A DNA stretch of 49,038 nt from Flavobacteriaceae bacterium (lineage in GTDB: Bacteria; Bacteroidota; Bacteroidia; Flavobacteriales; Flavobacteriaceae). Location: positions 1 through 49,038 of the forward strand of contig CANHMG010000007.1 in assembly GCA_947461795.1 (NCBI GenBank). Direction: 5' to 3'. A program made the translations under genes and the position numbers. The notes beneath the pieces are model-generated. The model worked only from the letters and a program-made list of their open reading frames with translations. It did not search any database and was not told the origin of the DNA. This document shows positions 886 to 42,276 of this stretch, piece by piece. Positions within the stretch are counted from its first letter, which is position 1; each line of letters begins with the position of its first letter.

Positions 886-1551
886 ATGAAAAATTATTAC
901 GCTTTGTTATTTTTAATTTGTACTACTAATATATTTCTTTTGTCTTGCTCAAAGGAAGAAAGTAATACAAATAAAAGTTTAGCCATGAAAGTCAGACAGC
1001 CAGTTACTGTTTCGCAAGTAAAGATTGGTAATCAAGTGTGGACTACTAAAAACCTGAATGTTACGGTTTATAGAAATGGTGATCTTATCCCGCAGGTGCA
1101 AGATGCTGCTCAATGGGTCAATCTGACTACAGGAGCTTGGTGCTATTATGGAATCTATGGTGGAACCTATGGAAAATTATATAATTGGTATGCAGTTAAT
1201 GATCCAAGAGGATTGGCACCTGCGGGATATCACATACCAACAGATTCAGAATGGGAAATTCTAGTTTCATACTTAGGTGGACCCAATGTTGCGGGTGGAC
1301 GCATGAAAACATTTACTAATTGGCTTTTCCCAAACTATGGGGCAACTAACGATTCTGGTTTTTCTGGGCTTCCAGGAGGTTCACGTAGTTATGAGAAGTT
1401 TGTTGGTTTAACTGCTTATGGTGCTTGGTGGACAGCTTCAGATTCAATAGGATACCCCTTGTATCGGAGTCTACATTACGATGGCGAATATGTAGGTCGA
1501 GGTTTTGTCTTTGATACCAAAGGATTTTCAGTTCGTTGTATTAAAAATTAA
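886..1551 (+). CDS. FISUMP (Fibrobacter succinogenes major paralogous domain) lipoprotein
   Basis: Lipoprotein signal (LLSC); KIGNQVWTTKNLNV, YGKLYNWYAV, GYHIPTDSEWE, GFSGLPGGSR, WWTAS, GFSVRCIKN motifs. Confidence 0.88.
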   Translation: MKNYYALLFLICTTNIFLLSCSKEESNTNKSLAMKVRQPVTVSQVKIGNQVWTTKNLNVTVYRNGDLIPQVQDAAQWVNLTTGAWCYYGIYGGTYGKLYNWYAVNDPRGLAPAGYHIPTDSEWEILVSYLGGPNVAGGRMKTFTNWLFPNYGATNDSGFSGLPGGSRSYEKFVGLTAYGAWWTASDSIGYPLYRSLHYDGEYVGRGFVFDTKGFSVRCIKN

Positions 1552-1727
1552 TATGTCAAAATTTCCGTGAGGGATTGCTTCGCCAATTCGCTATCGCTCG
1601 TGTGCAGCGGAAATCGTTTGTTGCCTATTTTCGGCTACAAAGATTATCTCACAAAATACTTATTATAAAATGTGTTCGCTCGATTCGCTTCGCTCGTGTG
1701 TGGCAGATAGTCCGACGGCACGCCCCA

Positions 1728-2114
1728 CTACTTAAAATCGACCGACAACGAATTGACACAATACCGCTGTCCCGTTTCCGTAGGTCCGTCATCGAAAACA
1801 TGTCCAAGATGACTGCCACAGTTGGAACACAAGATTTCTACGCGTAACATGCCGTGCGTCGTGTCTTTGATATATTCTACCTTTCCGGGAATCGATTCAT
1901 CGAACGACGGCCATCCGCAATGTGCGTTGAATTTAGAATCGCTTTCAAACAAGGCTTCCCCACAAGCACCACAACAATACGTCCCTTTTTCGAAATGAAG
2001 GTTGTATTGGCCAGAATGTGGAAACTCTGTTCCTTTTTGGCGTAGGATTTTGTAGCGCTCGAGACCCAATTGCGCTTTCCATTCTTCTTCGGTTTTTGTT
2101 GTGGGATATTTCAT
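1728..2114 (-). CDS. msrB: Peptide-methionine (R)-S-oxide reductase MsrB
   Basis: CCGACGEALF, HCGWPSF, GMLRVEILCSNCGSHLGHVFDDGP, GQRYCVNSLS; likely start at internal Met (MKYPTTKT) at 2114 rather than 2159. Confidence 0.95.
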   Translation of the reverse strand: MKYPTTKTEEEWKAQLGLERYKILRQKGTEFPHSGQYNLHFEKGTYCCGACGEALFESDSKFNAHCGWPSFDESIPGKVEYIKDTTHGMLRVEILCSNCGSHLGHVFDDGPTETGQRYCVNSLSVDFK

Positions 2115-2170
2115 CTTTATAATTTTAAATTTAGATCTGCATGCTGGTCTAATTCTCATTCTTATTTTTC

Positions 2171-2293
2171 AACCACATAGAAACATAGTTAATATCAAAA
2201 TCAGCAAGGCATTTCATTTTATCATAACAAAGCATAGCTATGTGAACCAATAATTGGTCTTTAAAATCTTTTTTTCTATGTTTCTATGTGGTT
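2171..2293. repeat. Long-loop inverted repeat
   Basis: AACCACATAGAAACATAG (2171-2188) and its exact reverse complement CTATGTTTCTATGTGGTT (2276-2293). Confidence 0.8.
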
Positions 2294-2455
2294 TGTTTTG
2301 AAAATTTTGAATTTTTATATTATTGCCCCCAACGGATTAGGTATTTTTTTTGCCGGGGATTTCAAAGAATTTTACGAATTATTTTAAGCGGATTATAAGC
2401 TATTTGGTTATTCACTAGTTTTAGAATAATCTATTAGATCATAGAAGTTACCCAT

Positions 2456-3343
2456 CTATTTCACTGAATTTTGTTTTTCTAATTGAATAGTGAAATTAAT
2501 GGTTTTTTCAATGACTTTCGCATCTCCTAAAATCTTACGGTGTCCTACGTTTTGGGTAATCATTAATTCTCCATTTTTTAGATTTTGATGAATGTGATGC
2601 GCACAACTCACCGGCACTTCATCATCATTTTCATCATGAATCACCAACACCGGAATCGATACCGATTTAGCAGCATAATGCGAAGAATAACTATCCATGG
2701 TTCGATTGGATTTTTTTTCAAAGTGAATGCGCAACAAGTCGCTGATTTTCGAATCGAGCTGTAGGTTTTGAACAAAGTCGTCGATGATGTCCTTCACGAT
2801 ATCACCACTTCCGATAATCGTTAACCGTTTAATTTTGAATCCTTCTTTAACAGTGTTCAACAAAGACATGCCACCTAAAGAATGCCCAACCGCGGCTTCA
2901 AACGGACCGAATTGCTTTTCGATTTCTAGGATTGATGCAATAAATTCAGGCATCAATGTAGTATTTCCTGGTGATTTTCCATGGGCAGGTGCATCGAAAC
3001 TTACGATTTGAAAACCTAGTTTTTCAAATGCTTCGGCAAACTTTACGAGTTGTGTTCCGCGCCCAGACCAGCCGTGAACCAACAATATTTTCTTTAAACT
3101 GGTGCCAGAATGATATACGTTAATCCTCTTCTGTATCGATGGGATGAGTAATACTTCTTGTCGCGTCAACCGATCCATTTCTAATTCTCGTTTTGGAATC
3201 GGATGTTTAATAGGAGAAGTAAATAATCTGGCTGCAAATTGCACTACTAATTTTGTTGAAATAAACGACAAAAATTGACCAACCACAATGATAATTTTAG
3301 GAATTTTCAAACTTTGGGTGGGTTTTTTGGTTTTCTTTGTCAT
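2456..3343 (-). CDS. Alpha/beta hydrolase
   Basis: VHGWSGRGTQ oxyanion region, GHSLGG nucleophile elbow, VLVIHDENDDEVP acid region, C-terminal GHRKIL histidine. Confidence 0.9.
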   Translation of the reverse strand: MTKKTKKPTQSLKIPKIIIVVGQFLSFISTKLVVQFAARLFTSPIKHPIPKRELEMDRLTRQEVLLIPSIQKRINVYHSGTSLKKILLVHGWSGRGTQLVKFAEAFEKLGFQIVSFDAPAHGKSPGNTTLMPEFIASILEIEKQFGPFEAAVGHSLGGMSLLNTVKEGFKIKRLTIIGSGDIVKDIIDDFVQNLQLDSKISDLLRIHFEKKSNRTMDSYSSHYAAKSVSIPVLVIHDENDDEVPVSCAHHIHQNLKNGELMITQNVGHRKILGDAKVIEKTINFTIQLEKQNSVK

Positions 3344-3484
3344 TTCAATAAATTTTAACGCAAGGTATTGTTTTCTTCAAAAAGTTGAAACTTATTTTGA
3401 AAACGAAAAAAGGCGTTAAACTAGTTGGCACTGAAAATCTGATATATTGATGAATATCGGTTACTGCAAGTGAATTGATTTCTT

Positions 3485-3607
3485 GTTGAAATATTTTTGT
3501 TAGAAAAAGCGGTGTATGAGTTGGACTATAAACTCAGTTCTCGTCCGCGATGGGAGGTCATTCCGTTGACAGGCATTGCGAGTATTATGGAGTTTACCGA
3601 GAATTAA
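3485..3607 (+). pseudogene. C-terminal relic of a trehalose synthase/maltokinase (TreS-Mak/Pep2)-like gene
   Basis: Frame reads VEIFLLEKAVYELDYKLSSRPRWEVIPLTGIASIMEFTEN*, resembling maltokinase-domain C-termini (LEKA.YE..YEL..RP.W..IPL.GI); stop in frame immediately upstream at 3476-3478. Confidence 0.65.
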
Positions 3608-3634: not shown

Positions 3635-3716
3635 TTTTAGGAGCTGGTTCCCGCTGTCCATTATATCTTTGCCGACGAACGCCGCCGCCAAAGGATGCCA
3701 TTGCCATCGGGGCTAG
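3635..3716 (-). repeat. Dispersed hairpin repeat, copy 1 (reverse orientation)
   Basis: taggagctggttcccgctgtccattatatctttg...caaaggatgccattgccatcggggcta; matches copies at 22052, 28419, 30140 and 42166. Confidence 0.8.
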
Positions 3717-3757
3717 TGGCATAGGTAGTTAATCCTATTCTCGAATGAAAACGTATA

Positions 3758-3783
3758 TTGTCCTCCCGAGCGCAGTCGAGGGA
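3758..3783 (-). repeat. REP-like palindrome R1
   Basis: TTGTCCTCCCGAGCGCAGTCGAGGGA. Confidence 0.85.
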
Positions 3784-3802
3784 TTTTAGAATGGAAGCAG
3801 TA

Positions 3803-3871
3803 CCCCTCGACTGCGCTCGGGGAGACAAAAAGTTGAATCGTAGCCGTTGTCCTCCCGAGCGCAGTCGAGGG
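3803..3871. repeat. REP-like inverted doublet R2/R3
   Basis: CCCCTCGACTGCGCTCGGGGAGACAA (3803-3828) facing TTGTCCTCCCGAGCGCAGTCGAGGG (3847-3871). Confidence 0.88.
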
Positions 3872-3898
3872 ATTTTTTAAATAAAATATACACGCCAC

Positions 3899-4207
3899 AT
3901 GAAATTCTATTATGTTTACATCCTAAGGTGCAAAGACAATTCATTATATACAGGCATAACTCATGATTTGGAAAGAAGAGTAAATGAACATAATGACGGA
4001 AAATTATCTAATGCATACACGTTCAAACGAAGACCGGTTACATTACAATTTTATCAAGAATTTACAGAACCAAATCAAGCAATATATTTTGAAAAAAAAT
4101 TAAAACATTGGTCCAAAGAAAAAAAGGATGCGCTAATAAAAGGCAATTTCGATTTGATTCAAACATTAGCAGAATGCAGAAATGCAACACATTCAGATTA
4201 TAAATAA
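3899..4207 (+). CDS. GIY-YIG nuclease family protein
   Basis: YYVYILRCKDNSLYTGITHDLERRVNEHNDGKLSNAYTFKRRPVTLQFYQEF...A...E..LKHW GIY-YIG core. Confidence 0.92.
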   Translation: MKFYYVYILRCKDNSLYTGITHDLERRVNEHNDGKLSNAYTFKRRPVTLQFYQEFTEPNQAIYFEKKLKHWSKEKKDALIKGNFDLIQTLAECRNATHSDYK

Positions 4208-4212
4208 GAAAA

Positions 4213-4281
4213 CCCCTCGACTGCGCTCGGGGAGACAAAAAGCTTCATTACAGCACTTGTCTTACCGAGCGAAGTCGAGGT
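4213..4281. repeat. REP-like inverted doublet R4/R5
   Basis: CCCCTCGACTGCGCTCGGGGAGACAA (4213-4238) facing TTGTCTTACCGAGCGAAGTCGAGGT (4257-4281). Confidence 0.87.
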
Positions 4282-4299
4282 ATAAAAAATAATTCAACC

Positions 4300-6201
4300 A
4301 TGAGCAAAGTACAATCCCATTCTCTTTTCACTGATTTCGATATCAATTTATTCAAAGCCGGAAAACACTTCCGTCTCTACGAAAAACTAGGCGCACATCT
4401 GATAGAAGTGGATGGTGTCAAAGGCACTTATTTCGCTGTTTGGGCGCCATCGGCACGGTCGGTTTCTGTCGTTGGTGATTTCAATTTCTGGATTCAAGGC
4501 GAACATCAACTCAACGTTCGTTGGGATGGCTCCGGCATTTGGGAAGGTTTTGCTCCTGGTGTTGAAAAAGGATCCACCTACAAATACAAAATACAATCCA
4601 ACAATGGCGGTATCATTACCGAAAAAGCCGATCCTTTTGCTTTATACTGTGAACATCCGCCACATACCGCTTCTGTCATTTGGGATCTCGATTACCAATG
4701 GAAAGACGACAAATGGATGAAGTCCCGAAAAGAAACCAATGGACTCGACAAACCGTATTCTGTTTATGAAGTGCATTTGGGTTCATGGAAAAGAAATGAG
4801 CAAGGAAAATTCTTAACCTATCTCGAACTCGCGGATCAATTGGTGAGTTACGTCAAAGAAACTGGTTTCACACACGTCGAGTTTATGCCCATCATGGAAT
4901 ATCCTTACGATCCGTCTTGGGGCTATCAATTAGTGGGATATTTTGCACCGACTTCCCGTTTTGGAAAGCCACAAGATTTTATGGTGTTAGTAGATAAATT
5001 GCACCAAGCCGGAATTGGAGTTATCCTAGATTGGGTTCCGTCACACTTCCCAGATGATGCACACGGATTGGGTTATTTCGACGGTTCCAATTTATACGAA
5101 CATCCAGACAGAAGAAAAGGTTATCACCCAGATTGGAAAAGTTTGGTATTCAATTATGGTCGCAATGAAGTGCGGTCGTTTTTGATTAGCAATGCGCTTT
5201 TTTGGTTGCAACATTATCATGCAGATGGACTACGAGTAGATGCCGTTGCCTCGATGTTGTATTTGGATTATTCGAGAAAAGACAGCGAGTGGGAGCCAAA
5301 CATGTTTGGCGGAAGAGAGAATTTAGACACGATTAGTTTCTTGAAAGATTTCAACGAAGCAGTCTATTCTAATTTTGAAGGTGTTCAAACGATTGCTGAA
5401 GAAAGTACTTCTTTTCCAATGGTTTCTCGACCAACATTTGCCGGCGGTTTGGGCTTTGGCATGAAATGGATGATGGGTTGGATGCACGATACGTTGCAGT
5501 ATTTTCAAAAAGAGCCTGTCTATAGAAAATACCATCAAAACGATTTGACTTTCTCTGCAACGTATGCTTTTTCTGAAAACTTTATGTTGCCATTATCGCA
5601 CGATGAAGTCGTATATGGAAAGAAATCCATCGCAGGAAGAATGCCTGGAGACGAATGGCAGAAATTCGCCAATTTACGTTTGTTATACGGCTATATGTTT
5701 ACACATCCTGGAACTAAGCTCTTGTTTATGGGGTCTGAATTCGGGCAAAGTGCTGAGTGGAATTTCGAAGGTAGCCTTGATTGGTATTTACTACAATTTG
5801 GCTATCATGAAGGCATTAAAAAAGTAATTACAGATTTGAATGCTTTGTATAAATCGAAACCAGCATTGTATGAAAAACAATTCAGCCCAGAAGGTTTCGA
5901 ATGGATCAATTATTCCGATCATCAAAATGCCGTGATGTCCTATATCCGCAAAGGAAATAACCCAAAAGAAGATTTGGTTGTTGTTTGTAATTTTACTCCA
6001 GTGGTACGGGAACATTATCGAATTGGTCTTCCTAAGAAAGGAAAACTGAATCAAATATTCAATTCCGATGAAACCCAATACGGAGGAAGCGGCATAACAA
6101 ATCCTAAAACTGTAAAAATTGAACTCGAACCATGGAATGGCAGAGATTTTTCAGCAGTTTTGGTTTTACCTCCATTGTCAGTTATCGTATTTAAATTTTA
6201 A
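4300..6201 (+). CDS. glgB: 1,4-alpha-glucan branching enzyme
   Basis: N-terminal CBM48 (YFAVWAPSARSVSVVGDFNFW), GVILDWVPSHFP, DGLRVDAVASMLYLDYSR, LPLSHDEVV, GSEFGQ..EWN motifs. Confidence 0.97.
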   Translation: MSKVQSHSLFTDFDINLFKAGKHFRLYEKLGAHLIEVDGVKGTYFAVWAPSARSVSVVGDFNFWIQGEHQLNVRWDGSGIWEGFAPGVEKGSTYKYKIQSNNGGIITEKADPFALYCEHPPHTASVIWDLDYQWKDDKWMKSRKETNGLDKPYSVYEVHLGSWKRNEQGKFLTYLELADQLVSYVKETGFTHVEFMPIMEYPYDPSWGYQLVGYFAPTSRFGKPQDFMVLVDKLHQAGIGVILDWVPSHFPDDAHGLGYFDGSNLYEHPDRRKGYHPDWKSLVFNYGRNEVRSFLISNALFWLQHYHADGLRVDAVASMLYLDYSRKDSEWEPNMFGGRENLDTISFLKDFNEAVYSNFEGVQTIAEESTSFPMVSRPTFAGGLGFGMKWMMGWMHDTLQYFQKEPVYRKYHQNDLTFSATYAFSENFMLPLSHDEVVYGKKSIAGRMPGDEWQKFANLRLLYGYMFTHPGTKLLFMGSEFGQSAEWNFEGSLDWYLLQFGYHEGIKKVITDLNALYKSKPALYEKQFSPEGFEWINYSDHQNAVMSYIRKGNNPKEDLVVVCNFTPVVREHYRIGLPKKGKLNQIFNSDETQYGGSGITNPKTVKIELEPWNGRDFSAVLVLPPLSVIVFKF

Positions 6202-22003: not shown

Positions 22004-22051
22004 GAACTAGTAAAAATAAAAGCCCAATACGTGATGGTGTCGGGTTTTTTT

Positions 22052-22130
22052 TAGCCCCGATAGTAGCGGTTATCCTTTTGCGACGGCGTTCGGCGCAAAA
22101 GATTAGAGCGTATAGCGGGAATTGCTCCTA
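22052..22130 (+). repeat. Dispersed hairpin repeat, copy 2
   Basis: tagccccgatagtagcggttatCCTTTTGCGacggcgttcggCGCAAAAGattagagcgtatagcgggaattgctccta. Confidence 0.88.
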
Positions 22131-28418: not shown

Positions 28419-28500
28419 TAGGAGCACGGGTCCCGCTATCCGCTATATCTTTTGCTGGCTAAAGAAGCCAGCAAAAGGATGCCGCTGTTATCGGGGCTAG
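28419..28500 (-). repeat. Dispersed hairpin repeat, copy 3 (reverse orientation)
   Basis: taggagcacgggtcccgctatccgctatatCTTTTGCTGGCTaaagaAGCCAGCAAAAGgatgccgctgttatcggggctag; perfect 12-bp apical stem. Confidence 0.88.
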
Positions 28501-28520
28501 AGAAACAAACAACCCTCAAC

Positions 28521-30094: not shown

Positions 30095-30139
30095 CTAAGG
30101 TTCTGAGTTGCTGAGTTCGTTCAGCGTATGCGGAAACCC

Positions 30140-30247
30140 TAGCCCCGATTGCAGCGGTTATCCTTTTGTGCTGCAGATATGCCCCTCGACTGCGCTCGGG
30201 GTGACAAGCACAAAAGATAATAGCGTAAAGCGGGAAATAGCTCTTAA
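30140..30247 (+). repeat. Dispersed hairpin repeat, copy 4, with a REP-like palindrome in its apical loop
   Basis: tagccccgattgcagcggttatCCTTTTGTGCT...cccctcgactgcgctcggggtgacaAGCACAAAAGataatagcgtaaagcgggaaatagctctt. Confidence 0.87.
30182..30206 (+). repeat. REP-like palindrome R6
   Basis: CCCCTCGACTGCGCTCGGGGTGACA; same family as R1-R5 at 3758-4281. Confidence 0.85.
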
Positions 30248-42068: not shown

Positions 42069-42165
42069 TTTGTGTTACTGAGTTGCTGAGACGCTGATTT
42101 ACTGAGTTTTGAATTTTGGTATAGCAGCATTTCACATTAAGTTGCGAAGATACGGAGTTTATCTC

Positions 42166-42276
42166 TAGCCCCGATAGTAACGGAAATCCTTTTGTGTTTT
42201 ATAAAAGTCACTTGACAGTGCATGCGACGACAAAAAACACAAAAGATTGGAGTGGATAGCGGGAATAAGCTCCTAA
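42166..42276 (+). repeat. Dispersed hairpin repeat, copy 5
   Basis: tagccccgatagtaacggaaatCCTTTTGTGTTTT...AAAACACAAAAGattggagtggatagcgggaataagctccta. Confidence 0.87.

Follow-up and report, generated by a model that had tools for sequence, protein, structure and literature searches.

The module described here consists of a single-domain GIY-YIG endonuclease partnered with the TGTC- or CGTC-tagged palindromes (REPs) that bracket its gene. Our preferred explanation, which we regard as likely although not settled, is that the nuclease acts on these palindromes and so drives the spread of both the palindromes and its own module. The analysis started from a 49,038-nucleotide stretch of a Flavobacteriaceae genome (hereafter the window, always meaning the whole stretch), in which a TGTC-tagged palindrome occurs in five copies, four of them arranged as two doublets, around a 102-aa GIY-YIG gene upstream of glgB:

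3758-3787, reverse strand: R1, an outlying TGTC-tagged palindrome that shares 30 identical nt with R3 and departs from the core 18-mer at one position
3803-3828, forward strand: R2, left palindrome of the upstream doublet, with its tag (GACAA) pointing inward and the core matched exactly
3847-3872, reverse strand: R3, right palindrome of the upstream doublet, an inner REP with its tag pointing away from the gene and one mismatch
3899-4207, forward strand: GIY-YIG gene, 102 aa (PF01541, E = 7e-19), with a UPF0213-like (COG2827-type) fold
4213-4238, forward strand: R4, left palindrome of the downstream doublet, an inner REP with its tag pointing away from the gene and the core matched exactly
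4257-4281, reverse strand: R5, degenerate right palindrome of the downstream doublet, with three mismatches, 18 nt before the glgB start
3803-4292, forward strand: the module unit (doublet-nuclease-doublet), the sole stretch common to the window and the relocated copy in genome G084 (blastn)
4300-6201: glgB-like gene with CBM48, alpha-amylase, and C-terminal domains
30182-30207, forward strand: dispersed REP copy with an exact core, in the apical loop of a Flavo-1 RNA

The first-pass annotation of the window had given correct positions for R1-R5 and for the lone copy at 30182, and the 102-aa GIY-YIG ORF that it placed between doublets upstream of glgB was confirmed by the domain matches. The head-on doublets that it described were also recovered: they span 3803-3872 and 4213-4281, have 44 nt between repeat starts, follow the common layout palindrome-GACAAAAAG-14 nt-TTGTC (TTGTC being the tag of the window repeats), and are 83 per cent identical over 72 nt. 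For the 19-mer with up to three mismatches, the chance expectation is 0 (100 shuffles). Two of its points hold only in part: all five palindromes were located, but R5 is degenerate and the single palindrome is imperfect and a weak hairpin, and the copy at 30182 is nested in a Flavo-1 RNA rather than free-standing. Folding against shuffled DNA revealed no stable hairpin for the window's single REP (z about 0), whereas the upstream and downstream doublets fold as long hairpins of -28.4 kcal/mol (z = -9.2 versus shuffles) and -24.4 kcal/mol (z = -8.4), respectively.

The window protein meets the criteria of the GIY-YIG superfamily in its residues (Y, Y-x-G, R, H, and E) and in its fold. Residues Y7, Y17, G19, R27, H31, and E65 are invariant in 27 sequences, and the AlphaFold model (pLDDT of 89.6) matches UPF0213 structures (1zg2 and 1ywl) and SLX1 in the PDB. 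The same UPF0213 structures are the closest solved ones by sequence (E = 3e-19) as well as by fold. SLX1 is a branched-DNA nuclease; for the UPF0213/COG2827 proteins, which include YhbQ and YazA, we know of no association with REPs and no established function. The window nuclease also shares its catalytic fold and residues, and the mobility of its gene, with the GIY-YIG homing endonucleases I-TevI and I-BmoI, but at about 100 aa it has neither an intron nor a separate DNA-binding domain, and its gene is bracketed by tagged palindromes. Because there is no domain beyond the catalytic one, we infer that REPs are probably recognized by DNA shape plus the tag. Searches of PADLOC and PHROG returned no match, and an origin in defence systems or phages is therefore unsupported.

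Bracketing was scored in the 300 nt on either side of each GIY-YIG gene and in the same regions of neighbouring genes at the same loci, with a repeat counted as shared across a gene at a Smith-Waterman score of at least 44. Among Bacteroidota and plasmid loci, 39 of the 52 nuclease genes have a shared repeat, compared to 8 of the 274 controls (odds ratio about 100; P-value = 3e-31); controls with at least 80 nt of intergenic space on both sides are bracketed in 6 of 85 cases. A GTDB scan was made with a four-sequence alignment, a broader one being too diverse, and it keeps only the best 80 matches, which makes it a non-random sample. Among these best matches, a shared repeat was found at 52 of the 77 nuclease genes in named loci versus 4 of 369 controls, and the loci span Pseudomonadota, Bacteroidota, Planctomycetota, Chloroflexota, Nitrospirota, Myxococcota, Spirochaetes, Omnitrophota, Ignavibacteriota, and Patescibacteria. 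At least ten bacterial phyla contain members of this nuclease family whose genes lie between matching repeats of their own. In a class sample of Alphaproteobacteria, 19 of 30 nuclease genes are bracketed; for uvrC, another GIY-YIG gene, examined in 30 genomes of the same sets, none of the 29 scorable loci is.

A GTC-tagged repeat is present on both sides of the gene at 95 of 133 nuclease loci versus 16 of 643 control genes, a result contrary to the outcome that the first-pass annotation had named as refuting its proposal, namely that homologs would be flanked no more often than random genes. The tagged pair is missing from 25 of the 133 homologs (about 19 per cent), and 13 more have a tagged repeat on one side only. 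The homologs without a tagged pair are scattered over the tree, as the association itself is spread over it, which rules out a single REP-associated sub-clade. In the prevalent orientation, seen in 55 of the 95 loci, the tags of the inner REPs point away from the gene on both sides (outward bias upstream, P-value = 8e-5; downstream, P-value = 1e-7), and in this they resemble terminal inverted repeats. Median distances from REP to start and stop codons are 39 and 16 nt, respectively. At three loci (L030, L032, and L033), the downstream REP encodes the C-terminus of the nuclease ORF (SSTSSD) and therefore overlaps the stop codon. On plasmid p1 of Planktothrix agardhii (L061), the module is found inside a DISARM defence locus, with an MmeI-like gene on one side and drmA on the other.

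The repeats that flank the nuclease genes fit the CGTC/TGTC-tagged REPs of Di Nocera et al. (2013; PMC3733652), a superfamily that includes TGTC-tagged forms, is known from Bacteroidetes and alphaproteobacteria, covers Neisseria dRS3, and 'apparently lack[s] a dedicated transposase'. The likeness consists of the CGTC or TGTC tag, an AT-first stem of 8-9 bp, a loop of 4-5 nt, and a CC(A) tail, and the superfamily, which includes Neisseria dRS3 and Rickettsia RPE-4/RPE-6, overlaps with our loci in A. lipoferum, S. meliloti, N. aromaticivorans, and Neisseria. The difference is that the superfamily was published without an associated transposase, whereas here its partner gene is a GIY-YIG nuclease; the flavobacterial repeats are also more degenerate than the four published CGTC families. 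The nuclease flanks read, for example, CCGTCATCCCCGCGAAGGCGGGGATCCAGG in Azospirillum lipoferum 4B, CCGTCATCCTCGGGCTTGACCCGAGGATCCA in Sinorhizobium meliloti and Shinella, and CGTCATTCCCGCGCAGGCGGGAATCC in Neisseria gonorrhoeae. Without any prior assumption about the tag, GTC is the commonest of the 64 trinucleotides beside hairpins in nuclease flanks; in enrichment over controls, CGT ranks first (3.0-fold) and GTC, which it overlaps within the same CGTC tag, second (2.7-fold). The terminal unpaired CGTC/TGTC tag beside the palindrome, which defines the superfamily, is present. In 34 distinct repeats with 8-bp stems from nuclease flanks, seven of the eight stem positions (pairs 6-23 to 12-17) are always Watson-Crick, with four pair types at 7-22, and the tail is CC or CT. 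Because this set was preselected for at least six of eight pairs, only the excess pairing is informative; the pairing is nonetheless kept despite varied pair types, which points to selection for the hairpin. With stems of 8-9 bp, compensatory changes, loops of 4-5 nt, and a CC(A) tail, repeats of the alphaproteobacterial type meet the stem criterion of the superfamily.

As judged from sequence comparisons, each nuclease has its own REP variant, and the abundance of that variant follows the presence of the nuclease. Over 108 loci, protein identity correlates with REP similarity (Mantel rho = 0.59; P-value = 0.001). Paralogs within one genome carry unlike REPs, their median similarity of 0.115 being equal to the background value, whereas nucleases at least 50 per cent identical in different genomes have a REP similarity of 0.31 (P-value = 7e-7 relative to same-genome paralogs). 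Since paralogs in the same genome differ and relatives across genomes are alike, the host tree fails to explain the co-variation of REP and nuclease. The window REP core is present in at least three copies in 22 of the 26 congeneric genomes with a close homolog of the nuclease versus 19 of the 174 without one (n = 200; odds ratio of 45; P-value = 2e-14), and in 6 of the 54 genomes that have only other GIY-YIG subfamilies. For the alphaproteobacterial REP type, scored in Alphaproteobacteria (n = 240), the nuclease is found in 21 of the 26 genomes that have two or more REP copies versus 47 of 214 others (odds ratio of 15; P-value = 5e-9), and the CCCGCG REP type reaches at least five copies in 17 of 22 genomes whose nuclease carries that type or a near variant versus 6 of 22 whose nuclease carries another. 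Both expectations of the first-pass annotation, co-occurrence and nuclease-specific REP variants, were accordingly met. It had also held that palindrome-rich genomes without a homolog would count against the proposal; such genomes exist (25 copies in G214, 20 in G093, 12 in G069, and 10 in G142, all congeners without a close homolog), but they are a minority, compatible with loss of the nuclease.

The window's genome is a draft of 2.35 Mb in 129 contigs, about 90 per cent complete, of which the window is contig C7; from its Flavo-1 RNAs and its relatives we infer the genus Flavobacterium. It holds a modest REP family of about 21 copies, genome-wide counts being taken from pattern searches. Only one of its GIY-YIG genes is small; two further PF01541 matches lie in frames of 602 and 456 aa. 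No PF01797 (Y1/RAYT transposase) match was found in the draft, which, within the limits of its completeness, rules out a RAYT acting in trans in this genome. Outside the module, at least 11 of 16 REP copies sit in apical loops of Flavo-1 hairpins, among them the copy at 30182, in the Flavo-1 RNA (RF01705) at 30137-30241. The Flavo-1 apical loop is a favoured REP site in this genome. At one such locus, four relatives have a Flavo-1 RNA with a different loop and no REP, and three others have neither. A structure-specific nuclease would fit with insertion at the tips of hairpins. The 49-kb window contains five Flavo-1 RNAs (3643-3718, 22049-22126, 28425-28502, 30137-30241, and 42163-42270).

Comparisons with related genomes show, from alignments alone, that the whole unit has been inserted at sites that were empty before and that its relocation was bounded by the REPs. 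At glgB, congener G142 aligns with the window as far as 3716, a stretch that takes in the Flavo-1 RNA, and resumes at the glgB start, with no REP and no nuclease; about ten further congeners lack the module at glgB, and G213 retains half a doublet. In A. lipoferum, sufB and sufC are parted by the module; in A. ramasamyi and A. oryzae, only a gap of 87-91 nt without REP or nuclease lies between the two genes. The empty sites that the first-pass annotation had proposed to look for thus exist at both places, although the flanks are too diverged to call a target-site duplication. Genome G084 has an 88 per cent identical nuclease in a different gene neighbourhood, where all that it has in common with the window is 3803-4292, from doublet to doublet, and a similar relocated copy is present in G218. 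Tandem duplicate modules occur in G070, G156, and G161. Within the close clade, the module mostly remains at glgB, and its mobility is therefore slow. In relatives, glgB is preceded by a 469-aa gene, which we read as putatively kinase-like; the window keeps only its last ~50 codons (3451-3600), an orphan 3' end that adjoins an unrelated alpha/beta hydrolase gene.

Several loci carry partial or multiplied nuclease genes. On pSymB of S. meliloti Ak57 (L057), a second copy of the nuclease 3' end, followed by a REP, lies upstream of the nuclease, which suggests a tandem duplication that was then partly lost. At L201 (G148), L204 (G204), and L041 (G009), stop codons interrupt nucleases that still lie beside REPs; these are decaying modules. 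At L072 (positions 1429-3597; G007:C24), six tandem 358-bp units each combine a GIY-YIG ORF, which belongs to another subfamily, with a segment resembling a tRNA 3' end (GGTTCGAATCCTGCCACCCCG); ARAGORN found no complete tRNAs at tandem GIY-YIG arrays. At L068 (G005:C20), a nuclease of another divergent subfamily occurs in two almost identical copies.

In REPtrons (RAYT or TnpA-REP), a Y1 tyrosine transposase of the HUH type lies between GTAG-tagged REPs. The module resembles them in having a single-copy nuclease gene within inverted REP pairs, an enzyme-specific REP variant with many dispersed copies, an unpaired terminal tag, and paralogs with their own REPs. It differs in that the window enzyme is a GIY-YIG protein without an HUH motif or a Y1-type catalytic tyrosine, the tag is CGTC/TGTC rather than GTAG, and the genome has no Y1_Tnp gene. 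The REPtron criteria of a Y1 transposase and a GTAG tag are therefore not met, whereas that of an enzyme bracketed by its own dispersed REP variant is; by analogy, the module would work like a REPtron without being one, with an enzyme unrelated to RAYT. The reading put forward at first pass, a GIY-YIG endonuclease in the position of a RAYT, passed every computational test that we could apply and is supported by association, co-variation, and insertion. In mechanistic terms, a REP or paired doublet would first be extruded into a hairpin or cruciform, most readily where the replication template is single-stranded; the nuclease would recognize the hairpin and GTC tag and nick or cut there; and host repair would then copy or reinsert the REP, or the REP-gene-REP unit, elsewhere, leaving the inserted unit. 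Host repair has to be invoked because no strand-transfer activity of GIY-YIG enzymes is known to us. Cleavage of REPs by the nuclease, the form of DNA that is cut, and cleavage as the cause of REP spread are all inferences. In favour of this explanation, besides the bracketing, tag, specificity, co-occurrence, empty sites, and relocation described above, are the covariation within the stems of CGTC REPs, the fold like that of a branched-DNA nuclease, SLX1, and the absence of a Y1/RAYT gene from the genome. Against it are the lack of cleavage data, the ~19 per cent of homologs without a tagged pair, the REP-rich genomes without a close homolog, the slow mobility, and the weak hairpin of the window's single REP, of which only the doublet folds well.

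The chief rival, which we consider unlikely, is that another agent spreads the REPs and that the GIY-YIG gene is a parasite homing into REP cleavage sites, and hence is always found between REPs. GIY-YIG is a classic fold of homing endonucleases, nuclease modules lie within larger REP clusters in several genomes, and between gltA and lpxB, where S. meliloti Ak57 has the nuclease, Sinorhizobium K101 has a REP doublet without it. However, the other empty sites (sufB-sufC in Azospirillum and glgB in G142) are free of REPs, the abundance of REPs tracks a specific nuclease subfamily, which a passive target would not need, and the window's genome has no RAYT to spread them. REP-free empty sites and co-occurrence thus weigh against homing but do not exclude it. 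Fold matches to UPF0213 and SLX1, and REPs within tens of bases of start and stop codons, could also be accommodated if an SLX1-like host nuclease removed or repaired REP hairpins, or pruned its own mRNA there, so that its position would reflect autoregulation and not mobility. We find this improbable: the patchy distribution, the empty sites, the relocated copies, and the tandem duplicates better suit a selfish element than a housekeeping gene, and autoregulation leaves REP copy number and insertion units unexplained. REPs, which occur between genes and, in many of these genomes, in large numbers, might simply build up in the intergenic DNA around any small accessory gene. This is scarcely credible, being refuted at the level tested by the same-locus controls (including those with roomy intergenic space) and uvrC, and the REP type goes with the nuclease, not with the genome.

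REPs are among the commonest repeats of bacterial genomes. We found no paper linking them to GIY-YIG genes in the open-access PMC literature (preprints excluded). The association that the first-pass annotation framed within Bacteroidetes does hold there, but it is much wider and reaches the published CGTC REP superfamily. So far, no better candidate than this nuclease has emerged for the missing enzyme of this large class of bacterial REPs. Whether GIY-YIG nucleases are the dedicated mobilizers of the whole CGTC/TGTC superfamily across bacteria, through hairpin cleavage and host repair without a transposase, and with new copies in the window's genome preferring the tips of Flavo-1 hairpins, is a broader proposition to which we give even chances. 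Our analysis names a specific enzyme family for CGTC REPs, in which REP variant and enzyme co-vary, and provides pairs ready for biochemistry. If cleavage proves true, a second, chemically unrelated enzyme would have reached the RAYT way of life, and many genes labelled only 'GIY-YIG nuclease family protein' would gain a function.
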